Virus record (IMG/VR): IMGVR_UViG_3300025671_000372 | Coordinates: 1 to 28,848 of that record | Strand: one strand, 5' to 3' | DNA: 28,848 nt | Origin: a virus | In this document: piece after piece, positions 10,425-28,848 of the stretch | Position numbering within the stretch: the stretch's first letter is position 1 | Layout of the letters: each line of letters opens with the position of its first letter | Translations under genes and position numbers: made by a program | The notes under the pieces: generated by a model | Seen by the model: the letters and a program-made list of their open reading frames with translations, nothing else | Database searches by the model: none | Told to the model about the DNA's origin: nothing

Positions 10425-12899
10425 ATGAGCAATGACGAATTTGATAACTTACAACCTCAGTCCTATTTAAATGTAGACCAATTAATAAAACTATATGATT
10501 CTTATAACAAAAGATCATTAGAACCCACCACCAAAGAAAAGCTAATTATAAATCCTAAGTTAGCATACGAAATTACAGACCAGTTGTTACATGACTCTAT
10601 ACCTTATGAATTAATCAAAAGATATAGAGATGTATATGGAGAAATAAGTAAAGTATCAAAAGTAAATCCTGTATCAAATCTGAATTGGGATTTTTTATAC
10701 TTTGTTAATTCTGACTATTTTAGACCAGCAGCATTAGCTTTTGAAAGATCAGAAAGAGCTGTCATAGGTAGTAAAATAAAAGCATCATATACTCAACATA
10801 TTCCTGGTACAAAATCTTACGAGAAATTTTGGGAGCAAGAGTTTACTAGAATAGTAAGTGGATATGAGCCTATTATTGATGGTAAACCATGTGGATTAAG
10901 AATATCAGGAGAATTCTATTTCTACCTTAATTATTGTAGAATAGAAAAAGTAACAAGAGATAATTCAGGTAAAACAATAGTTAGATCATCCTTTCCTGAC
11001 TTTTTAGCTATGGACTATTACTACTTTAAAGAATTAGAGTCTAGAGAGAATCCATCAATATATGGATATGATGATAGTTATAAAAGATCTATTGCGTTAG
11101 TTAAATCAAGACGTAAAGGATTTAGTTATAAAGCGGCTGCAGGATGTGTATGGATAGCTGCATTTAATAAAAAAGCACGTGTAGGTATAGCTAGTGAACC
11201 CAATACAAGTGATGCAACAGATGCTGTTAAATGTGCTAGAAAGTGTTTACCTATTATAGATCATTTAACATTATATACTCCTTTTGGTAGAAAGAATCCA
11301 GGTGATCCTAAGATAAATGGAGGATGGATACACTCTAAAGCTAAAAACACTGATAAATACTTTTCATTTACATTCGGATTAGAGAATACAAAAACCAGAG
11401 GTCAAAGAGGTAGGATGTCATCTATATTTACAATGTCATTATCTAAAGATGATGCTGCTTCAGGTGAAGGTCTCAATAGATTGTACTTTGAAGAATCTGG
11501 TAAAATATCTAACCTTGATAAAGCATGGATATTTGCTAGAGAGTCGATGAAAGCAGGATCGTTATTTCGAGGGGTGGCTGTTCTATACGGAACCGGAGGT
11601 GAGATGAAATCGTCATCAGGTGCAGATGGTTCATCCAAAGCATTTAGTACACTATTTAATAATCCTGTAGCAGCAGAACTAGCTGCTTATGATAATATAT
11701 ATGAGTACAAAAACAGTAATGAAAAGTGTGGCTATTTCGTAGCTGATATGTGGTCTAACTTTGGAGCATATATAAAGATTGACGGTAAGATATATGAGTC
11801 TTTAGATAGAATGGGTAATGCATTCTTTTGGGTTGCAGAACTAGCTCTAAACAAAGAAAGGTATGATAAGATGCCACCTAAAGGTAAACAGAAGGACTAT
11901 AATGATTTCTTAACGCAGAGGTGTAAGACTCCTTCTGAAGCTTTTTTAGTAACTTCAACAAACATATTTAATTCCGCAGATATTATAGCGAGAATAAATA
12001 AAATCAAAATGGAAAAAGGAGGGTTTTCTAAATACAGAACACCCGGAGAACTATATACTACTACTAATAATAATGTACAGTTTAAACCTAATAACCTATT
12101 AGAACCTGTAACTAATACTAATCAATCATCATCAAATAGAGAAGGTTGTTTATTAGTATACGAAAACCCTATCAAAATTAATGGATCTATACCTGAAGGA
12201 GCATACATAATTGCTGTTGACCCAATAGCTATGAATAATTCAGGAGGTAACTCTCTTAATGCAGTTATTGTTATGAAAACACCTAGATATTCTGATGTAA
12301 TGGGTCCTGAAAAAATAGTAGCTACATATTTTGGTAGATCTTCAGTTAGACCTTTAGACTATCTACATAGATTGCTTTTGAACTTAAGTAAGTATTATAA
12401 CGCACAAATATCACACGAGAATGATAGAGATGGAGGTATATTAAGTTTCTTTACTCACAAGAATGAACTACATAGACTTATGCCTTCACCTAGACTTGTC
12501 ACTAAAAAATACTTACCAGGTAGTAAAACATTGCTAAGAGAATTCGGACATTCTATGGGTAATGAAAGATTAAAGAGTGTTGGTGAAGGTTATTTGAACG
12601 AGTGGTTAGACTTTAGACATCCTTCTAGAAAATTAGTAAATGAATCCACAGGTAATATAGAAGAGAAAGAGGGTCTGAGAAATCTTGATATGATATATGA
12701 CGAATTAATTCTGGATGAATTAGTTAATTATAATCGTAATGGAAACTTTGACTCTACTATGGCTCTTATGGGAGCAATGGTTCAATTGTCAGATAAGTTT
12801 AATACACAAGGAGATGTATTTGTAGATAATGACTATTATAATGAAATAGATAGGCAAATGGTATCATATATTAAAGATAAAGTAGGTGATTACTTTTAA
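10425..12899 (+). CDS. terL: Large terminase subunit (ATPase-nuclease)
   Basis: This is the packaging motor that cuts concatemers and pumps DNA into the prohead at the portal. The ATPase half has a deviant Walker A at 227-236 (KSRRKGFSYK, in place of GxGKS/T), Walker B at 353-358 (LYFEES, with the catalytic Glu) and coupling motif YGTGG at 388-392. The RNase H-like nuclease half has AVDP (D599), SHENDRDG (E665, D667) and FDSTMALMGA (D776), the three acidic clusters that bind metal. At 824 aa it is longer than T4 gp17 (about 610) but near the size of TerL in large Bacteroidota phages. It is followed by the portal gene after 70 nt. The frame is intact with no intron. Confidence 0.9.
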   Translation: MSNDEFDNLQPQSYLNVDQLIKLYDSYNKRSLEPTTKEKLIINPKLAYEITDQLLHDSIPYELIKRYRDVYGEISKVSKVNPVSNLNWDFLYFVNSDYFRPAALAFERSERAVIGSKIKASYTQHIPGTKSYEKFWEQEFTRIVSGYEPIIDGKPCGLRISGEFYFYLNYCRIEKVTRDNSGKTIVRSSFPDFLAMDYYYFKELESRENPSIYGYDDSYKRSIALVKSRRKGFSYKAAAGCVWIAAFNKKARVGIASEPNTSDATDAVKCARKCLPIIDHLTLYTPFGRKNPGDPKINGGWIHSKAKNTDKYFSFTFGLENTKTRGQRGRMSSIFTMSLSKDDAASGEGLNRLYFEESGKISNLDKAWIFARESMKAGSLFRGVAVLYGTGGEMKSSSGADGSSKAFSTLFNNPVAAELAAYDNIYEYKNSNEKCGYFVADMWSNFGAYIKIDGKIYESLDRMGNAFFWVAELALNKERYDKMPPKGKQKDYNDFLTQRCKTPSEAFLVTSTNIFNSADIIARINKIKMEKGGFSKYRTPGELYTTTNNNVQFKPNNLLEPVTNTNQSSSNREGCLLVYENPIKINGSIPEGAYIIAVDPIAMNNSGGNSLNAVIVMKTPRYSDVMGPEKIVATYFGRSSVRPLDYLHRLLLNLSKYYNAQISHENDRDGGILSFFTHKNELHRLMPSPRLVTKKYLPGSKTLLREFGHSMGNERLKSVGEGYLNEWLDFRHPSRKLVNESTGNIEEKEGLRNLDMIYDELILDELVNYNRNGNFDSTMALMGAMVQLSDKFNTQGDVFVDNDYYNEIDRQMVSYIKDKVGDYF

Positions 12900-12969: not shown

Positions 12970-15645
12970 ATGATATTTCCTACTCAAAAGATAGATTCAA
13001 AAAAGAAGGATAAAACTTGGGCTAGACGATGTATAGACTTTGTTATAGCTGAAGGAAACTCAACTCTTCGTTCTGATATAATTAGAATGCTAAGTAACTA
13101 TAGACTGATTAATTCTCAGATGGAAGAAGAAGAGATGAGATCTATATGTAAAGTATTAGGAGTTAATGAAAAAGCAGGCAAGAAGTACATAAGCATGTAC
13201 AACAAAACACCTAATATATTATCTACACTTAAAGGTGAAGAATTAGATAGACCCTTTACATGGACAGTTACATCTCTTACAGATCAACCAGATAGTAAAT
13301 ACATAAGAGATCAAGAAATTGAATACTCTAAAATAGTTGATGAGATATTTAAATTAGAATCAGAAAAGATATCTAAGATTATAGAGATTGAAGTACAAAA
13401 CGAATTACAGAATATACCTGAAGATAAAAAGGAACAAGCTATACAGGAATTGGAAGCTAAGTATAAAGAGAAGTATTCTAAGATACTTGATATAGAATCT
13501 ATAGAATCAAAAAGAAAAAATATATTAAAAGAAAAAGAATCAGCAATATCTAATCTTATGAAAATAGCATTCAGAAGAATAGATATGAGATTTATTAAGA
13601 ATGAATGCTTTTCAGATGCAGCAATAGCAGGTAAAGAGTTTGTAGAAATAACCTTTGAACCAGGCAATCCTATTCCTATTATTAGACAGTTAAATCCTAC
13701 TAATGTATTTTATCATAAATCGCCAGACAGTCCTTTTACACATGATTCAGATTATGTCGGATATCAGGAAGAGATTACATTAGGACAAGCGTTAGATCAT
13801 TATGGTGAACTAATGACAGATAATGAAATTAAGAGATTACAGACGTTCTCTTATGATAATACAGGTAAATATGGTACTAGCGATAGTATGTTTCATACTA
13901 GAGCAGATAGACATGCATCCTCGTGGTCAGCAAAAAGAGAAGCTGGAATGTTTCCATCAGGAGCTAACATAGATCCACAAGCTATGATGGTAATGGATGG
14001 CAAGTATATGGGAATACCTACATCTAGTTATACTAATGGTAATAATATATACGGTCCTGGTTTATATGCAGACTCAAGAACTTATAATGGTCGTTATGTT
14101 TCTGTTTATACAGTTTATTGGAAATCATATAGAAAAGTATATAAATATACCTATACTGATGAATATAACGAATTGTGTGATGAGATAGTAGATGAGTCAT
14201 TTGTTGTACCTGATAATTACAAAACTGAGAAATATAGACCAACACCTTTTGCTGATTATAAAACTAAAAAGATATGGTATGATGATGATGATAAATACAA
14301 TTGTATTGAAGAAATGTGGATACCTGAAATATGGAAAGGTGTAAGACTTAACGGAGATATTTACGTTAATGTTGGTCCTTTAGAAAATGCATATCAATCT
14401 TTAATCAATCCATACAAAACTAAAATACCTGTATTAGGTTTTATATATAACAGCAGAAATACAGGAATACTTTCTATTGTTGACAGACTTCAGTCCTGGC
14501 AGAAACTATATTATGCTGTTATGGCTAGACTTGTTAAAAACCTCTCTCAAGACAAAGGTGTATTAACATTCTTAAACTCTCTTATGGTAAGTGACGAAAT
14601 AGGACTAAAAGCTACACTTGCTATGGCAGAAGATGGTAATATAACTCCGTATAATCCTTTGGCTTATTCTAAAGGTAATGTAGGTGTAATGAATACTATG
14701 AAAGTAGCAGAAAGAATAGATGCTACTAACTCTACAGTAATACAATACTATATACAATTATTACAGTTTATCGAGAACCAAATGATAGAAGCTGTAGGTA
14801 TGTCTCCTCAAAGACTTGCTAAGACTAAAGTAAATACTACAGCTACTGACAATCAAAGAGAGACAATGCATAGTATGAATATTACAGAACCATTGTATTA
14901 TGCTCATGATCTTCTGTGGGAAAAAATATGCCAGACTTATATGGAAATGTTAATATCATCTTTATCAGAATCCAAAGGAAAATTTAGAGGTATGATAGAT
15001 GATAAGCATATGGCTCTTATCGACTTAGAATTGTTGTCACTAGAAGATGAGTATCTTATTAAAATATCAAATAATATTAAGAATAATAAAATACTTGATA
15101 TTATGAAGTCACAAGTTCACGCTATTATTCAAAACGATAAAGCTAATTTATCTACACTTATATCTATGCTTAAGACAGATGACCTAACAGAATTGGAAGA
15201 TTATCTGTTAGATCTTGAAACTAAGATGAGCAAACAAGAAGAAATGCGTGAACAATCTAGGAGAGAACAAGAAGAGAAGATTGAAAAAATGAGATTAGAA
15301 CAAAGAGAAGATGAGCAAATAGCTAAACTTCAATCTGACTATCTCAATAATATTATGAAGAGAAATACTGATATTGAAAGAGAGCATATCAGAGGTAAGT
15401 ATTTAATAACATCTTATAATTTACAGAACGATAATGATGCTGACGGTATTCCTGACATTATGGAAGCTGACATTAAATACAAGAAATTTATTAATGACGT
15501 AGCTGCTAGAGAAGAAAAGATAAATTCTGATAGACTAAAGTTATTATTAGATCAGGAGGAAATGGAAAGAAAGAAGAAAGAACATGAAGATAAGATGCAG
15601 CTAGAAAGAGAAAAACTGAAACAGCAAAATACAAAACAAGCATAA
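12970..15645 (+). CDS. Portal protein
   Basis: This should form the dodecameric channel at the capsid vertex through which TerL packages DNA. The 891-aa length, the position directly after terL, and the sequence style support the call. The style includes the core segment FFRRIDMRFIKNECFSDAAIAGKEFVEI-like wing/clip (about 200-225), QLNPTNVFYHKSPDSPF, the central VDRLQSWQKLYYAVMARLVKNL and GMSPQRLAKTKVNTTATDNQRE. Residues 120-190 and about 755-890 are highly charged coiled coils (for example MSKQEEMREQSRREQEEKIEK), the latter the expected crown/barrel helices. Similar long portals occur in crAss-like and related phages. Its end is 12 nt before the chaperonin gene. No single diagnostic motif exists for portals, so context carries weight. 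Confidence 0.82.
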   Translation: MIFPTQKIDSKKKDKTWARRCIDFVIAEGNSTLRSDIIRMLSNYRLINSQMEEEEMRSICKVLGVNEKAGKKYISMYNKTPNILSTLKGEELDRPFTWTVTSLTDQPDSKYIRDQEIEYSKIVDEIFKLESEKISKIIEIEVQNELQNIPEDKKEQAIQELEAKYKEKYSKILDIESIESKRKNILKEKESAISNLMKIAFRRIDMRFIKNECFSDAAIAGKEFVEITFEPGNPIPIIRQLNPTNVFYHKSPDSPFTHDSDYVGYQEEITLGQALDHYGELMTDNEIKRLQTFSYDNTGKYGTSDSMFHTRADRHASSWSAKREAGMFPSGANIDPQAMMVMDGKYMGIPTSSYTNGNNIYGPGLYADSRTYNGRYVSVYTVYWKSYRKVYKYTYTDEYNELCDEIVDESFVVPDNYKTEKYRPTPFADYKTKKIWYDDDDKYNCIEEMWIPEIWKGVRLNGDIYVNVGPLENAYQSLINPYKTKIPVLGFIYNSRNTGILSIVDRLQSWQKLYYAVMARLVKNLSQDKGVLTFLNSLMVSDEIGLKATLAMAEDGNITPYNPLAYSKGNVGVMNTMKVAERIDATNSTVIQYYIQLLQFIENQMIEAVGMSPQRLAKTKVNTTATDNQRETMHSMNITEPLYYAHDLLWEKICQTYMEMLISSLSESKGKFRGMIDDKHMALIDLELLSLEDEYLIKISNNIKNNKILDIMKSQVHAIIQNDKANLSTLISMLKTDDLTELEDYLLDLETKMSKQEEMREQSRREQEEKIEKMRLEQREDEQIAKLQSDYLNNIMKRNTDIEREHIRGKYLITSYNLQNDNDADGIPDIMEADIKYKKFINDVAAREEKINSDRLKLLLDQEEMERKKKEHEDKMQLEREKLKQQNTKQA

Positions 15646-15657
15646 CCAATATTAATT

Positions 15658-18288
15658 ATGATTACCGATTCTAATACAACCAAAATGAGCATACTCCGTG
15701 GAGCTAAATTACTATCAGATACTGTTAAAGTTACTTTAGGTACAAAAGGTAGATTAGTAATGTATACTAATTATAGGGATTTTTCTGATCCAGAAGGATA
15801 TCCTGTACTAACAAAAGACGGAGTTACTGTAGCTAAAAATGTTAAATCAGATGATCCTGTAGAACAACAAGCTATTAAAATAGTAAGACAAGCAGCAAAA
15901 AATACAGTAAATAGTAGCGGCGATGGACCACAACCACTATACGCTAAAGTTCTTACACCTAATGGTTTTGTTACTATGGGATCTCTGAAAGTAGGTGATG
16001 AGATATGTGGTACTGACGGTAGTATACAGAAAGTACTTGAAATACATCCTAAAGGATTAAAGAAGGTGTGTAAAGTAAAATTCTCAAGAGGTAAAGTAGT
16101 TGAATGTTGTGAAGATCACTTGTGGGAAATACATGATCTGAATGGTTATAAATCAATTAAGACTACTAGAGAAATATATGATTCTGGATTATTATATCAT
16201 AGAAATTCAGGTAAACATCAGCTTAGGTTTTTTGTAAGAAAACCTAACATAGATTTTTCTGAGAAGGAGTTAACAGTTCCTCCATACTTGTTAGGTATAC
16301 TGATAAGTAATCCTACTCTTTCTGATGACAACAATAAGCTTACAGTTAATATATTACAGAAGAAAGCTAGTGTTATTAGATATATAAATGAATATCACAA
16401 TGTATCTATGAAAACATATATTGATGATAGTCCTGAAAGTGTTATTAGATCTAAAGCTAACAATACATATTACACTATAACTTTTGAGGATAATACTTTA
16501 TTAGATCAATTGAGAGATTTAAAAATATTTGATACTGATTATTACAGTAGAGTTATACCTGACATATATAAGTATTCCAGCTATTTACAAAGAGAAGATA
16601 TCCTTAACGGATTTATTGACGGTAGCGGATCTATAAAAAACAGAAGAACTTTTCAGTACAAAACAGCAAGTAGTACAATAAAAGATGATTTTATAGAATT
16701 GTGTCAGTCATTAGGTCAGGATGTTAAAAACAAAAGATATACTACAACCGAAAATGGAAGATATCTTATTCCAGAACCTATATATAAAATATATGAGGTA
16801 TCTAATTATAAGTATGGAGATAGAATAGAAGATATTGAATTTACAGATACAGAGATAGAAATGATGTGTATTAAAGTATCTAATGAAGATCATCTATATA
16901 TTACTGATAATTATATATCAACACATAATACTACTACAACTGTTATACTATCTGAAAGTATTATATCAAAAGGATATGAGCTATTAAGTAAAGGCAATGT
17001 TTCTTCATGGGAGATGAATAAGGAGATAGATGAAGCTGTTGAAGATATATCACAATATATATTAGATAATTCAACAAATTTATCAAACGATATAACTGCT
17101 TTGAGAGAGTTGGCATCTATATCAGCTAATAGTAAAGAAATAGGAACTATGATATATGATATAGTTGATGAACTCTCTATTCATTGTGATATTGAGGTTA
17201 AAAAAACCAAAAGGAATATAACAGAAATAGAAGCAGTGAATGGTATGAAATTGCACAAAGGGTATTATGAATCATTTATGTGTAATGATTATAAATCAAT
17301 GACCTTCCAAGCCAGTAATGTTAATATACTTATATATGATGGTATAATTAAGGACTATAGTAATATAGCTCCTTATGTAAAAGCATCTATAGATGATGAT
17401 AATAATATAGTACCTCTTGTTATATATGCCCAAGATGTTAACAGGATAGCTATTAACAGAATAGAGGGTATGTTAAAATACAACCCCAGACCTTTAATTA
17501 TAGTAGAGCATGATGGATTTGGTGACAGAAGAATAGATATAATGGAAGATTTTGCTCTTATTACTGGAGCTACTATTGTAACAGAGAATAGTAACAACAA
17601 TGTAATAATGATTAAGAATGCTTTTGGTAAATGTGATGAAGTATTTATTAATGATAAGTATAGTTCTTTTGTAGGAGGTAAAGGAAATCAAGATCTAATT
17701 GACGATCAGATACTAGATATTCAAGATTTAATAAAAAATACAGATCCTAATAACAAGCAAGACATTAGATTTTATAATAAAAGAATAGCTAATCTATCTG
17801 GAGGTATTGCTGTTATCCACGTAGGAGGTAATACTCCTTTTGAAATGGAAGAAAAGTATATGCGTATAGATGATGCTGTACTAGCTGTAAAGTCAGCAAT
17901 AGCTTCTGGTATTAGTATCGGAGGCGGTGTAACTTGGATAAGAGCTAGCCATTATGCTATAAACAAAACAAGAGGATATAATAGAATTGATAATCCAGCA
18001 TATTTTATGGTTTTTGATAGTCTTCAAGAAATACCAATGCAACTACTAAAAAATTCAGGAGAATATACTAGTGAATTCTTTAAAGAACTTAAATCAAAAT
18101 ATCTAAGCGATAAACCTAAAGGTTACAATCTTGTTGACAGAAAGTTCTATGATATCTCTAATTATAAAGTAATGGATGCAACTTCTGTATTATTAGACGC
18201 TATATCTAATTCATCTAGTGTTGCTAAATCTCTTCTGTCTGTAGAGAAAGCTATACATTTTGATAATAACGTAACTGGATTAAACTAA
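15658..18288 (+). CDS. groEL: GroEL-type chaperonin interrupted by an intein
   Basis: The precursor is 876 aa. Excising residues 91-424 leaves 542 aa, close to E. coli GroEL (548). GroEL landmarks run throughout: KVTLGTKGR (24-32), LTKDGVTVAK (51-60), SGDG (87-90) joined to TTTT (425-428), SANSKEIG, VNGMKLHKGYY, GDRRIDIMEDFALITGATIV, RIANLSGGIAVIHVGG, RIDDAVLAVKSAIASGISIGGGV and SSSVAKSLLSVE. Asp equivalents of D52, D87 and D398 are present, so an active ATPase is expected. The GGM tail is absent and GPKGR reads GTKGR. Position between portal and scaffold/capsid genes suggests a chaperonin dedicated to virion proteins; a GroES-like partner may be encoded at 5798. Activity requires protein splicing. 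Confidence 0.93.
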   Translation: MITDSNTTKMSILRGAKLLSDTVKVTLGTKGRLVMYTNYRDFSDPEGYPVLTKDGVTVAKNVKSDDPVEQQAIKIVRQAAKNTVNSSGDGPQPLYAKVLTPNGFVTMGSLKVGDEICGTDGSIQKVLEIHPKGLKKVCKVKFSRGKVVECCEDHLWEIHDLNGYKSIKTTREIYDSGLLYHRNSGKHQLRFFVRKPNIDFSEKELTVPPYLLGILISNPTLSDDNNKLTVNILQKKASVIRYINEYHNVSMKTYIDDSPESVIRSKANNTYYTITFEDNTLLDQLRDLKIFDTDYYSRVIPDIYKYSSYLQREDILNGFIDGSGSIKNRRTFQYKTASSTIKDDFIELCQSLGQDVKNKRYTTTENGRYLIPEPIYKIYEVSNYKYGDRIEDIEFTDTEIEMMCIKVSNEDHLYITDNYISTHNTTTTVILSESIISKGYELLSKGNVSSWEMNKEIDEAVEDISQYILDNSTNLSNDITALRELASISANSKEIGTMIYDIVDELSIHCDIEVKKTKRNITEIEAVNGMKLHKGYYESFMCNDYKSMTFQASNVNILIYDGIIKDYSNIAPYVKASIDDDNNIVPLVIYAQDVNRIAINRIEGMLKYNPRPLIIVEHDGFGDRRIDIMEDFALITGATIVTENSNNNVIMIKNAFGKCDEVFINDKYSSFVGGKGNQDLIDDQILDIQDLIKNTDPNNKQDIRFYNKRIANLSGGIAVIHVGGNTPFEMEEKYMRIDDAVLAVKSAIASGISIGGGVTWIRASHYAINKTRGYNRIDNPAYFMVFDSLQEIPMQLLKNSGEYTSEFFKELKSKYLSDKPKGYNLVDRKFYDISNYKVMDATSVLLDAISNSSSVAKSLLSVEKAIHFDNNVTGLN
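15928..16929 (+). mobile_element. Class 3-type intein in GroEL, degenerate LAGLIDADG domain
   Basis: The insertion is 334 aa (residues 91-424) between GDG and TTT of the chaperonin nucleotide-binding motif. It starts with Pro (PQPLYAKVLTPNGF...), so it lacks the usual Cys/Ser nucleophile. It carries the Trp-Cys-Thr set that defines class 3 inteins: W156 in block B (CEDHLW, with H154), C404 in block F (MMCIKV) and T422 just before the terminal H423-N424; the +1 residue is Thr. A homing endonuclease region lies between. Its two LAGLIDADG-like motifs are LLGILISNPT (211-220) and LNGFIDGSG (316-324), and both have lost the catalytic Asp (N218 and S323). Splicing is therefore expected but DNA cleavage is not. 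Confidence 0.9.
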
Positions 18289-18401: not shown

Positions 18402-19679
18402 ATGTCTAATGAGTCAAAAGAAAGTGTTGAATATATGTTCGATGAAAGTATATTAGAACAATCAATACGAAATGAAGTAAGTAGTGCTGAACAAGGAAGT
18501 AATAACTCTAATAATAATGGAGGAGATACTGATAATAATAACAGTGTAAATCCTTTTAATTATGACTTGGATGCTGCTATTTATAATGAACTGTCAGGAT
18601 TAAAGTCAAAAACTGACAATAACGATCTTGATGAAAATATTAAAGAATTACATCAGGATGCGGTATCTAATAACAACGATGATACCAAAACATCAGAAGT
18701 TAATACAACCTCTAATAATAACTCTAATAGTATCGAAGATAACGATCCTTACCAATTAGCATTAGACGTTATTAGAGAAGAGAACTTATTGTATATACCA
18801 GATGATTTTGAAGGAGAACTAGATGCTGATGCTATTGATTACTTCAAAAGACAAACAGAAGCAATAAGAGCTAACCAAATAATCCAATCTCAAAGAAATA
18901 AATTTCAAAACGATCCTTATAAGTTAAGACTATTTGACTATTTCTTCACAGCAGGAGCTGATGCAGACATTCCTACTTTTACTCAAATAAATGATGGGCT
19001 AGAATATTGGGATAGTTTTGATACAAAAGATGAAGAAAATCAAAAACTAATTATATCAGAATATCTTAAAGACGGGTTAAACGAAAATAATCCAAGCTAT
19101 GAGATATTATTAGCTGATATAGATAAAAAGGTTGATGATATAATTTCATCGTACGAAGGTGAAGATAAAGCTAATGAAGCTAAAAACTACTTTATTGAAA
19201 AACATAAAGAGTATATGGCTGAAGAACTTCAAAGAGTTGAAGAGCAGAATACATTAAGAATGCAATATGAACAGTCTTTGGAACACCAAAGAATGGATTG
19301 GAATAAGAAATTTGCAGAATCAATTAATTCAAAGAGCTGGTCACCTTCTAAAAAACAAAACATAGTAAATGAACAATATCAGGAAGTAATGTATAATGGC
19401 CAATACATGCCAGTATGGTATGTCAAAGAATCAATAATTAAAAATAATCCTGAGTTGTATATTACTTACTTAGACTGGTTAAATAATAATTTTGATTTAG
19501 AAACCGAGTCATTTATTAAATCAAGTAACAGCGAATCAGAAGAAAAAACACAAGTTACTAGAAAGATATTAGATCTTATTAACAAAAAACAAGGGAAAGC
19601 AAAATCCCACCAGATGAATTATAATAGAGAATCTGAAGAAGAGGAGGATATAAAAGTAAATCCTCTGGATAATATTTAG
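18402..19679 (+). CDS. Probable scaffolding/prohead core protein (425 aa)
   Basis: This very acidic protein lies directly upstream of the capsid gene, the classic place for a scaffold. Residues 1-120 are low-complexity Asn/Asp/Ser. Residues 150-240 are helical (YFKRQTEAIRANQIIQSQRNKFQNDP). Residues 255-310 form a charged coiled coil (KHKEYMAEELQRVEEQNTLRMQYEQSLEHQRMDW), and the C-terminus is Glu-rich (ESEEEEDIKVNPLDN). This composition and the helical C-terminal region fit proteins that line the inside of the prohead. No protease is seen in the window. The assignment is by position and composition, not by a motif. The 113-nt gap before it (18289-18401) contains no clear structure. Confidence 0.65.
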   Translation: MSNESKESVEYMFDESILEQSIRNEVSSAEQGSNNSNNNGGDTDNNNSVNPFNYDLDAAIYNELSGLKSKTDNNDLDENIKELHQDAVSNNNDDTKTSEVNTTSNNNSNSIEDNDPYQLALDVIREENLLYIPDDFEGELDADAIDYFKRQTEAIRANQIIQSQRNKFQNDPYKLRLFDYFFTAGADADIPTFTQINDGLEYWDSFDTKDEENQKLIISEYLKDGLNENNPSYEILLADIDKKVDDIISSYEGEDKANEAKNYFIEKHKEYMAEELQRVEEQNTLRMQYEQSLEHQRMDWNKKFAESINSKSWSPSKKQNIVNEQYQEVMYNGQYMPVWYVKESIIKNNPELYITYLDWLNNNFDLETESFIKSSNSESEEKTQVTRKILDLINKKQGKAKSHQMNYNRESEEEEDIKVNPLDNI

Positions 19680-19695
19680 AAACAAATTTTTAATA

Positions 19696-21797
19696 ATGAG
19701 TATTAATACTGTAGATTTTACTCAAGCTAAAGTAAGTAATAAAAGACCAACTAAGTTAACTGACGGACTTACTGTTACTGAAGAGCTTAAAGGAAAACAC
19801 CTGCACCAAGCATTTGGTACAGATAATCTTGCTAATATCAATATTGGTTATGCACAAATCTTTGCTGCAACTGACAGATATTATGGCAAACCTTTAGTAG
19901 GGATAAAATAGTTGTCCCTCCTCATAGTAATATGGGGACAAATAAGAGAGTAAATTGCTGGAAACTCTCAAAGCCTCTATGCCACGGACATAACTTGTAA
20001 AAGTAAATATCTAAGGAGCGAAAGCAGAAAAAAGTTAGAGGATTACCTATGGGGAAACCCTAATGGCGAATGAACAGACAATCAGCAGGCAAGACTTATG
20101 AAAATCGTACTTTCTGAAAAACAAATAGCAAGGCATGTACAGACTTGAAACTTATTCTATCAGTGCCAGTAGTAAAGTTTGTAATTACCTCTATCAAAAC
20201 TCAACGATTTATTTGGAAAGAAAGTACAATAAGTATATTAAATATACTAGTAAGTAAGCTTCATCGACTATAATCTCTCCATCCTACTGTAAATTAAGAG
20301 GATGATGGTATAGTCAGGCCTTTGTAGAAATATAAAGGATAAATTCGGACCGAGGCTAAAGGAAAAATTAAGAAGATAAACTCACACGGGTTCCGCTGGG
20401 AACTTTCAGGAGGTGCAGCTCAAAAAGCACGTGTAACAAAAGTAGTTAACACTGATGCATATCCTGGTATCAACCACAGCTATGTTGATATCGTAGTTGA
20501 TAAGCCATACTTCAATATCTCAGATATTGTACAGCCACAAAGCAATGAATACCGCCTTCGTGTTGTATCTAAGGATGGATCTCGTAAGTATCGTAAGCTT
20601 GGACCTAACCAGTTCCAGTATACTTTACAGTTTACAACTAATGATAGAAATATGAGCTTACCTCGTACATTCCTTCAGAATGGTGCAGAATGGAACAAAG
20701 TATCTAGTGCAGTTGCTAATGAAGACAACCGTGACTTTGGTGGATTCCAGTTCTATAGCATCTTCCAAAGCGAAGGGTATGTTCAGCAGCACGCTATCAA
20801 AGTAGAACTTTCTGACAAAGCTGCTCGTAAAGCTAAGGCTTTTGCTGACGAAGGTGACTTTGATAAAGCTGGTAATGACCTTGGACGTTATGCTAACTCT
20901 ATCCGCCACATGTGGACAAGCGTTGGATTCAACAAAACAACAGGTCTTCCAATCATGCGTTTTATGTCTCTGCTTGATGCAGAAGCATTCAACGAACTAT
21001 ACCGTAACGTAGAGAACACTCTTATGTTCGGACAAGAATCTAATATTCTTTATTCTCCAGAAGGACATCAGATCTATACTGCAAGCGGTCTTCGTGAGCA
21101 GCTTCGTTCTGGTTGGGTATTGGAGCATAACGGAAACATGAGCCTTCAAGAACTTGAAGATTGGTTCGATTCAATCATCAAAGATAAAATCTCTGAAGGT
21201 GAGCAGCAGATTGTATTATCGGCTGGACGTGAGTTTCGTAAGATGTTTGATCGCATGATCAAAGCTGATGCTTCTTCTTTCGTAACTCTTGACACTATGT
21301 TCCTTCGTAAAGGAGATGGTGTACGTCACTTAGATTACGGATCTTACTTCGCAAGCTACAAAGGATTCACAGTGGATATCACTGTAATGGAGAATCCAGC
21401 ATATGACAATGCATTCTATTGCCCACAGATGCACCCAGTAAAAACTAACACTCCAATTGATTCTTGGCGTGCAGATATCCTTGACTTTGGTTATTCAAAG
21501 CAGCAGGGAACTGGAATGACAACTGACAATATCAGTATGATAGCAGAGGATTACTGTGACTATCACATAACTTATAACGGAAAGTGGTACGCTTTCGACG
21601 GCAAATCAGGTCTTCCAATTACTGACGGCGGGTTGGGCCAGGCAGGTGGAGTATCTGGTTACTCTATCGTTCGTGAAAAATCAGCAGGTCTGATGGTAGC
21701 TGACGTAACTCGTTGTGGAAGCATTTATCTGTCTATTGATGAAAGTGAATATGCAGTTGATGCACCAAGCTCTGCACCAGCTTATTGGAACTGGTAA
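19696..21797 (+). CDS. Major capsid protein, gene split by a group I intron
   Basis: The coding sequence is join(19696..19904, 20348..21797), giving 552 aa. Exon 1 alone would stop at a TAG 5 nt into the intron (71 aa). After splicing, the codon ATG (Met70) is completed across the junction and reading continues TEAKGKIKKINSHGFRWELSGGAAQ. Size, position after a scaffold-like gene, and sequence style (VVDKPYFNISDIVQPQSNEYRLRVV, FGGFQFYSIFQSEGYVQQHAIKVEL, RSGWVLEHNGNMSLQELEDW) fit the HK97-fold major capsid proteins of large Bacteroidota/crAss-like phages. Exon 2 uses CGT, GCT, ATC and CAG far more than its neighbours, as expected for the most abundant virion protein. The ATG at 20652 is internal, not a gene start. 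Confidence 0.8.
19905..20347 (+). mobile_element. ORF-less group I intron (443 nt)
   Basis: Core elements are visible in order. P1 pairs exon AGGGAU (19899-19904) with GUCCCU (19914-19919), with the U-G pair at the splice site. P3 is GAGAG (19946-19950) with CTCTC (20275-20279). The P element AATTGCTGGAAA (19953-19964) and Q element AATCAGCAGGCAAG (20080-20093) form P4. P7 is GACTATA (20266-20272) with TATAGTC (20309-20315), and P8 is CATCCT (20280-20285) with AGGATG (20299-20304). The last base is G20347, and P10 pairs GUU (19911-19913) with exon 2 GAC (20348-20350). These boundaries restore one frame. No endonuclease ORF is inside. Confidence 0.93.
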
Positions 21798-27771: not shown

Positions 27772-28848
27772 ATGTTTTTAATGATACAAGGTAATGTATT
27801 GGGTGCAGGAAGATCTGCTGCTTTTGGTAATAGACTATTATTAGATAAGTTTCCAGGTGCAGCAGTTGCTTATGCATTATTACCATTAAGTAAAAACTTT
27901 GTAGATCAACCTTTAATTAGGGTTAGAAGATCTTCTGATAATACAGAGAGAGACTTTACTTATGAAGAGATACAAGACAATACATTATTACAATGGTCAC
28001 AATCATCTGACTTTGATAATATGTTACTGCTTGATGAATTCCCTAATGCTACATCAGCATATTCTTTAAGGAATTTATCAGTTAATTATAACGGTCCAGT
28101 AATTAGAGCTAGACGTACTATAGATGATACTGAAGCAACGTTTATAGCAAAAGAGATAACTGATGGTACAATAGAAGATTGGAGTACAGGTAAAGGATTC
28201 AAAGACTTTAGAATAGTTGTTAATACAGAAAATAGTGGTGTTAGTAATAACGATCAGTTTCAATTTACAGGAGCATTAGGTAATTATGATGTAGATGTAT
28301 ATGATGAGACTGGTACAATATATTATGAAACAATAACTGGACTTGTTGATGAAGCTACTATTACTATAGCTAATGGGCCTGGTATATATGAGCTTAGAGT
28401 TTTCCCGGCTGCTACGAATGGGTTTAATCGGATTAACTTTCTCAACGGCGGGGATAAGGATAAGCTGTTAGAAGTAAGAAATTGGGGGGAGATTGTTTGG
28501 TCAACGATGTCATCTGCTTTATCTGCTTTTTACGGCTGCACGAATGTTACGAGCATGACAAGTAGTGTGCTGCCTGACTTATCTAACGTGAGTAATTTCG
28601 CCTCTTTCGCATTTGGTTGCAGCAGCTTAACTACCCTAGACGTGAGCGGGTGGAACACAGCAAGTGTGACAAATTTCGGCGCTTTCGTATTTCAATGTCG
28701 CAGCTTAACTACCCTAGACGTAAGCGGGTGGAATACAGCAAGCGTGACAGTTTTCGCCTCTTTCGCATTTGGTTGTAGCAGCTTAACTACCCTAGACGTA
28801 AGCGGGTGGAATACAGCAAGCGTGAGTAATTTCTCCTCTTTCGTACGG
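27772..28848 (+). CDS. Receptor-binding/adhesin-type protein with BspA-like leucine-rich repeats, cut by the window end
   Basis: The first 359 residues are present and the gene runs off the window. Residues 22-140 hold two copies of a motif (AAVAYALLPLSKNFVDQPLIRVRRSSDNTE and TSAYSLRNLSVNYNGPVIRARRTIDDTE). Phage tail proteins with this motif are often annotated as resembling the arabinofuranosidase-B N-terminus. Residues 140-210 form a beta domain. From residue 211 the DNA becomes markedly more GC-rich and encodes a BspA/DUF285 region (KLLEVRNWGEIVWSTM...FYGCTNV) leading to 26-residue repeats SLTTLDVSGWNTASV. The likely role is binding a host surface molecule. The GC break suggests acquisition of the repeat domain from a bacterial gene. 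The start is ATG at 27772, after an A-rich leader. Confidence 0.78.
   Translation, partial: MFLMIQGNVLGAGRSAAFGNRLLLDKFPGAAVAYALLPLSKNFVDQPLIRVRRSSDNTERDFTYEEIQDNTLLQWSQSSDFDNMLLLDEFPNATSAYSLRNLSVNYNGPVIRARRTIDDTEATFIAKEITDGTIEDWSTGKGFKDFRIVVNTENSGVSNNDQFQFTGALGNYDVDVYDETGTIYYETITGLVDEATITIANGPGIYELRVFPAATNGFNRINFLNGGDKDKLLEVRNWGEIVWSTMSSALSAFYGCTNVTSMTSSVLPDLSNVSNFASFAFGCSSLTTLDVSGWNTASVTNFGAFVFQCRSLTTLDVSGWNTASVTVFASFAFGCSSLTTLDVSGWNTASVSNFSSFVR
28624..28848 (+). repeat. 78-bp tandem repeats encoding BspA-type LRRs
   Basis: The unit starting AGCTTAACTACCCTAGACGT recurs at 28624, 28702 and 28780 with few changes, mostly silent or in the variable last third (NFGAFVFQCR, VFASFAFGCS, NFSSFV). 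Such near-identical units permit repeat-number change by recombination. The array continues beyond the window. Confidence 0.9.

Follow-up and report, generated by a model that had tools for sequence, protein, structure and literature searches.

How does a phage obtain a working GroEL-type chaperonin from a gene whose ATP-binding motif is split by 334 extra codons, and what has become of the insert itself? The gene lies in a 28,848-nt stretch of viral DNA (IMG/VR record IMGVR_UViG_3300025671_000372, positions 1 to 28,848; hereafter the window), which carries terminase, portal and capsid genes of crAss type in module order (Table 1). The portal and capsid proteins match mainly crAss-like phages, and on the basis of these genes we assign the phage to the Crassvirales.

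The interrupted chaperonin and its insert

The 876-aa open reading frame matched GroEL on both sides of the insert (phrog_5725, E 6.6e-97; TIGR02348, E 8.2e-86; Cpn60_TCP1, E 8e-43), with the interrupted protein scoring 288.5 bits, below the TIGR02348 equivalog cut-off of 582 bits. When joined, the exteins match the GroEL/Cpn60 family profile over their whole length and are 39-41% identical to intein-free relatives. KDG, GDGTTT (post-splicing) and the DDA-segment Asp are all present in columns invariant in the chaperonin alignment, and we take these to be the nucleotide-site residues from their roles in established GroEL biology, in which GDGTTT binds phosphate. The frame is kept whole in another contig of this phage, 99.72% identical over 10,878 nt; together with 46 other contigs of the intein family, this contig rules out a chance reading frame or an assembly artefact. 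The coordinates of the frame and insert, the positions W156, C404 and T422 and the HN preceding T425 were exactly as an earlier sequence-only reading of this DNA had given them. AlphaFold modelling of the entire precursor (pTM 0.49) gave a result too poor to serve as a basis, and no Cpn10 match that would point to a phage GroES partner was found in the window or in nine related records, all of which may be partial.

Table 1 Features of the window discussed in the text (positions are those of the window).
Feature	Position	Strand	Basis
Terminase large subunit	10425..12899	+	phrog_6681, E 9.5e-85
Portal protein, immediately 5' of the chaperonin	12970..15645	+	phrog_6547, E 6.5e-72; crAss-like matches
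Chaperonin-intein precursor gene	15658..18288	+	876 aa, frame unbroken; GroEL matches; same frame in contig L004
N-extein, GroEL as far as GDG (G90)	15658..15927	+	Cpn60 profile positions 1-62; empty-site alleles
Predicted class 3 intein, 334 aa, P1 to N334 (P91-N424)	15928..16929	+	Empty-site comparison; family alignment; fold model
Block B His64-Leu65-Trp66 (His B:10, Trp B:12 of WCT)	16117..16125	+	Aligned to HQW of 6rix and 6bs8; invariant in intein alignment
Degenerate LAGLIDADG motif 1, LLGILISNP (consensus LLGxLLGDG), Asn128 for catalytic Asp	16288..16314	+	Family and PI-SceI profile alignment
Degenerate LAGLIDADG motif 2, LNGFIDGSG (consensus LxGLIDTDG), Ser233 for catalytic Asp	16603..16629	+	Family alignment; PF05204 match around it
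Block F Cys314 (F:4 of WCT), expected first nucleophile	16867..16869	+	Opposite MchDnaB1 Cys124; invariant in 47 inteins
Block G Thr332-His333-Asn334 (Thr G:5 of WCT, terminal Asn)	16921..16929	+	Family and reference alignment
Thr+1, predicted C-extein nucleophile, first Thr of GDGTTT	16930..16932	+	Junction sequence; empty sites
C-extein, GroEL, TTTT to stop codon	16930..18288	+	Cpn60 profile positions 63-486; TIGR02348
Protein between chaperonin and capsid gene, scaffold-like by position alone	18402..19679	+	Place conserved; 23-37% identity in relatives
Major capsid protein, crAss type	20391..21797	+	PF23898, E 5.4e-20, E 2.2e-29; ORF start 20652, family match from 20391

The insert sits between SSGDG and TTTT and has Pro at position 1, with no Cys, Ser or Thr there. 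Relatives were gathered by portal and capsid scans of viral contigs and by a GroEL scan, and 13 related contigs with the chaperonin 3' of the portal gene (L140, L142, L146, L148-L156 and L158) have an uninterrupted SGDG/TTTT. The joined window exteins equal this empty-site string, so both junctions are set by comparison, beyond motif reading. Within them, W156, C404 and T422 of the precursor become W66, C314 and T332 of the intein, and His B:10 (H64), the C-terminal Asn (N334) and the +1 nucleophile (Thr+1) are all present. Class 3 inteins are defined by Trp B:12, Cys F:4 and Thr G:5 and by the absence of an N-terminal nucleophile (PMC3196547); in MchDnaB1, the catalytic triad is Cys124, His65 and Thr143, and Trp67 completes the WCT set (PMC7664689). 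A profile of mini-inteins from the chaperonin site (L058, L125 and L127) matched MchDnaB1 (6rix, E 1.3e-7) and MsmDnaBi1 (6bs8, E 1.7e-5) over nearly the full reference length, and the profile alignment placed the Trp, Cys and final THN of the chaperonin-site inteins opposite those of both. The alignment of W156, C404 and T422 with class 3 reference inteins was thus looked for and found, and every sequence feature tested agreed with the proposal, made in the sequence-only reading, of a class 3 intein at the ATP-binding motif of a phage chaperonin. None of the NCBIfam intein models matched the insert even at E 10, and Pfam saw the endonuclease alone (PF05204, E 9.3e-7), so the insert could escape routine annotation.

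A Hint fold was likewise looked for in a structural model of the 334-aa segment and found: the AlphaFold model of the window intein, built from a 15-row alignment (pLDDT 84.8, pTM 0.84), predicts a Hint fold plus a LAGLIDADG domain. Among PDB matches, PI-SceI came first (E 1.9e-17) and was the best whole-length fold match, while class 3 inteins stood lower in the list (TM 0.77-0.80 by target length); the endonuclease domain also matched the I-DmoI fold. The best matches in a viral structure library include terminases, RecA, AAA proteins and helicases, and no chaperonin-named entry was among the 50 matches listed, many of which are nameless.

Together, these data make us highly confident that a class 3 intein of 334 aa interrupts GDG/TTT of a crAss-like phage GroEL and that this copy should splice but no longer home unaided. 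Cys314, aided by His64 and Thr332, would attack the Gly90-Pro1 peptide bond, and the N-extein would then be transferred to Thr+1; cyclisation of Asn334 would follow, and the exteins would join into a 542-aa chaperonin with GDGTTT restored. The window copy most likely splices in this way. Because Thr+1 is the first Thr of the phosphate-binding GDGTTT, unspliced precursor should not bind ATP normally, and we infer that the chaperonin needs splicing for ATP binding.

A mobile intein family at one chaperonin site

Homologous in-frame inteins occupy the identical codon boundary, chaperonin GDG/TTT, in 46 other contigs, several of them near-copies of one another, and four more chaperonin-site inteins are partial or frameshifted (L035, L037, L106 and L130). 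The family was found by scans with the intein, with the intein alignment and of a genome collection. W, C, T, HN and Thr+1 are present in 47/47 chaperonin-site inteins, where conservation of W and C is partly by construction (search patterns held ECCEDH(LW) and CIKVSN), T stood in no pattern, and W was unselected in about a dozen loci without the ECCEDH string (L085, L088, L092, L094-L097, L102-L104, L125 and L127, among others). When 36 chaperonin inteins were compared with 32 from other sites, the chaperonin set formed one side of a branch (SH-aLRT 99); by this tree, the chaperonin-site inteins are one clade, widespread in phage chaperonins. Bacterial chromosomal GroEL was rejected as a carrier: the only intein match inside a chaperonin in the genome collection, L070, adjoins terminase and portal genes and is therefore phage DNA.

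Members of the clade differ in form. Three inteins inside the class 3 chaperonin clade (L097:3998-4972, L103:3998-4954 and L124:3998-4954) combine Cys1 (GDG/CQP) with a complete WCT set and may be intermediates or revertants between class 1 and class 3; such forms make gain and loss of intein class testable at one site. Natural mini-inteins of 139-150 aa, from which the endonuclease is gone (L058:5001-5417, L125:4001-4438 and L127:2792-3241), are candidate tools for class 3 protein engineering. In the phage of L016, the intein profile matches once more, though less strongly (G007:C1:110687-111193), over the endonuclease part only, in a 905-aa frame.

Median pairwise identity was 49% among chaperonin-site inteins vs 31% among their host chaperonins. 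Unequal constraint could account for part of this difference, so closer pairs weigh more. L094 and L121 differ at 1 of 329 intein codons vs 89 of 489 chaperonin codons, and their identity rises from ~94% in the flanks to 99.9% in the intein, with a step at both junctions. In L089 and L129 the inteins are ~95% identical vs ~75% for the adjoining exteins, and between L018 and L040 dS is 0.57 in the extein vs 0.03-0.07 in the intein. L091 and L100, a pair picked after identities were seen, are sisters in the intein tree (support 99), whereas the chaperonin data reject the pair (AU p 2e-5). The chaperonin tree requires six intein gains or losses, at least four by starred branches. Six copies from these pairs keep both endonuclease-motif Asp, with the exception of L100, whose motifs are odd. 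These comparisons indicate that chaperonin-site inteins move between phage chaperonins like selfish elements, recently in relatives of the window intein, and the clade would have spread among phage chaperonins by homing. As tree proof of transfer, the pair L019 and L085 was not significant (p 0.40), despite 63% vs 29% identity; for the window and L007/L008 inteins, the data are as compatible with separate entry into the crAss-like clade as with a common one (AU p 0.50).

Most of the 13 intein-free contigs have scaffold-like and then capsid genes 3' of the chaperonin, and among relatives capsid identity to the window was ~68-80% where a long match was measured. Gene order in L008 and L144/L145 is as in the window, with the intein present. 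More distant crAss-like contigs (L131-L138) gave no GroEL match within the stretch fetched; their portal and mostly their terminase matched. The chaperonin lies in the head module of the window and near terminase or portal genes in other carriers (L070, L013, L015 and L094), a setting which suggests that the phage chaperonin assists head-protein folding.

Other observations concern individual genes. The scaffold-like product is rich in Asn, Asp and Glu and evolves fast. In the intein-free relative L146, the capsid gene is in three pieces (L146:7382-10411), and its insertions of roughly 0.9 and 1.1 kb are possibly introns, which have been reported for crAss-like capsid genes. L144 and L145 (IMGVR_UViG_3300002231_000712 and 3300002242_000061) have frame breaks in the terminase, portal, intein and capsid genes that look non-biological, as if both assemblies contained sequencing errors. 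The chaperonin frame of L008 (L008:1410-3836) stops ~50 residues short of its relatives' C-terminus, through a frameshift or true truncation. At the far end of the window, a frame still open at the window end (27772-28848) encodes C-terminal BspA-type leucine-rich and DUF285 repeats (PF03382, E 2.5e-10; PF13306, E 9.3e-7), unusual for a phage structural region; its product is possibly a host-binding protein.

Endonuclease decay and the fate of the window intein

The LAGLIDADG domain of the window intein lies between blocks B and F, as seen in the PF05204 match and in the PI-SceI and I-DmoI fold matches. The catalytic Asp is missing from both of its motifs, LLGVLLGDG having become LLGILISNP and LIDTDG having become FIDGSG. 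We take the catalytic positions to be the Asp in GDG and the second one in DTDG, from general LAGLIDADG knowledge plus the PI-SceI profile alignment. With both replaced, the window intein is most likely unable to home by itself; its endonuclease is probably inactive and the intein stranded, and on the motif residues (Asn128 and Ser233) we reject active homing by this copy. The changes are identical in contig L004/L005. Decay is also seen elsewhere in the clade: L063 lacks motif 1, and L058 and L125-L127 lack the endonuclease. The sequence-only reading was right about the class 3 intein but missed the LAGLIDADG domain and its decay, and it treated a member of a widespread family as an isolated oddity.

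That reading had also suggested that splicing could act as a timing or redox control. The window intein would then be domesticated, with conditional splicing keeping the phage chaperonin inactive until wanted. Its endonuclease has decayed while the frame stays intact, it contains six Cys (27, 48, 60, 61, 259 and 314), and there is a class 3 precedent in MsmDnaBi1, which H2O2 blocks through a disulfide of the catalytic Cys (Cys48-Cys118; PMC6195587). However, no sign of regulation is visible in the sequence, 13 related crAss-like contigs manage without an intein, and inteins at this site travel between chaperonins as selfish elements; on these grounds, timing or redox control went unsupported. 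Furthermore, Cys48 of the window intein is one residue off the MsmDnaBi1 disulfide partner in the alignment, and inteins of other proteins commonly have the Cys60-Cys61 pair too. A Cys-Cys redox site special to chaperonin inteins was rejected, ECCEDHLW being equally common in other proteins' inteins by a count that is biased, as ECCEDHLW was also a search pattern. We therefore regard domestication as unlikely, although redox control of the window intein is possible. The specific form in which an intein with a dead endonuclease serves as a retained switch, with Cys314 blocked by oxidation or another host condition, the chaperonin delayed and head-protein folding so gated, seems to us improbable.

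Decay could instead have gone further, so that splicing has ceased in the window intein, the phage has no working chaperonin of its own and host GroEL substitutes. Neither endonuclease motif is intact, no other branch of the chaperonin-site clade is as long as that of the window intein, which makes loss of splicing compatible with its sequence, and a class 3 pseudogene intein is known in Arthrobacter (PMC3196547). Yet every splicing residue is still in place, no stop interrupts the chaperonin frame, and the exteins of the phage's two contigs differ by two silent changes only (532 codons compared), so there is little chance, in our judgment, that this insertion is dead. A class 2 route, in which Thr+1 attacks directly and the block F Cys goes unused, would suit the Pro at position 1, which leaves no N-terminal nucleophile, but is barely credible given a full WCT set common to 47 inteins and class 2 inteins known from KlbA genes only (PMC3196547). 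Our reading of the window copy remains a class 3 intein that most likely splices and has probably lost homing.

Relation to known inteins and chaperonins

The sequence-only reading knew of no described intein at this site in a phage chaperonin, and none of the papers searched described one in any phage chaperonin either (InBase and NCBI nr lay outside the search); a survey of intein-rich crAss-like phages leaves GroEL unmentioned. Among named phages, 0 of 50,697 records cover 80% of any of three intein-bearing precursors at the sensitivity used. In nr, 1,701 class 3 inteins were counted in 2020 (PMC7891396), so unremarked chaperonin cases there are possible. From these searches, the element is of a known type, but its host protein and insertion site are apparently new. 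Chaperonins would thereby join the proteins invaded by inteins, and the preference of inteins for ATP-binding motifs would extend past P-loop ATPases, with the intein taking its nucleophile from the phosphate-binding motif, whose first Thr it borrows. At this one site, stages of the homing cycle can be seen side by side: empty alleles, recently transferred copies whose endonuclease motifs are intact, copies with a decayed endonuclease, and mini-inteins.

GroEL proteins of Myxococcus phage Mx1, Bacteroides phage DAC23 and Vibrio and Flavobacterium phages belong to the same family as the window chaperonin, but they are intein-free, their alignment running unbroken across the site. MchDnaB1 (6rix, 6riy) and MsmDnaBi1 (6bs8) resemble the window intein in WCT and His B:10, the lack of an N-terminal nucleophile, the terminal THN, the Hint fold (predicted for the window) and insertion in an ATP-binding motif (the DnaB P-loop for MsmDnaBi1). 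They differ in being mini-inteins without endonuclease in a bacterial helicase host, and their weak similarity to the window intein is confined to the splicing blocks. Phage terminases and helicases also contain class 3 inteins (mycobacteriophages, PMC5050341; crAss-like TerL, PMC7886860). These share the phage host and the ATP-binding-motif preference, and many combine Hint and LAGLIDADG as the window intein does; however, they sit in other host proteins, and the 32 that were fetched lie outside the chaperonin clade. Finally, PI-SceI, the yeast VMA1 intein, has the same plan of Hint plus two-motif LAGLIDADG endonuclease, but it is a class 1 intein (Cys1) of a eukaryotic V-ATPase whose active endonuclease retains both Asp.
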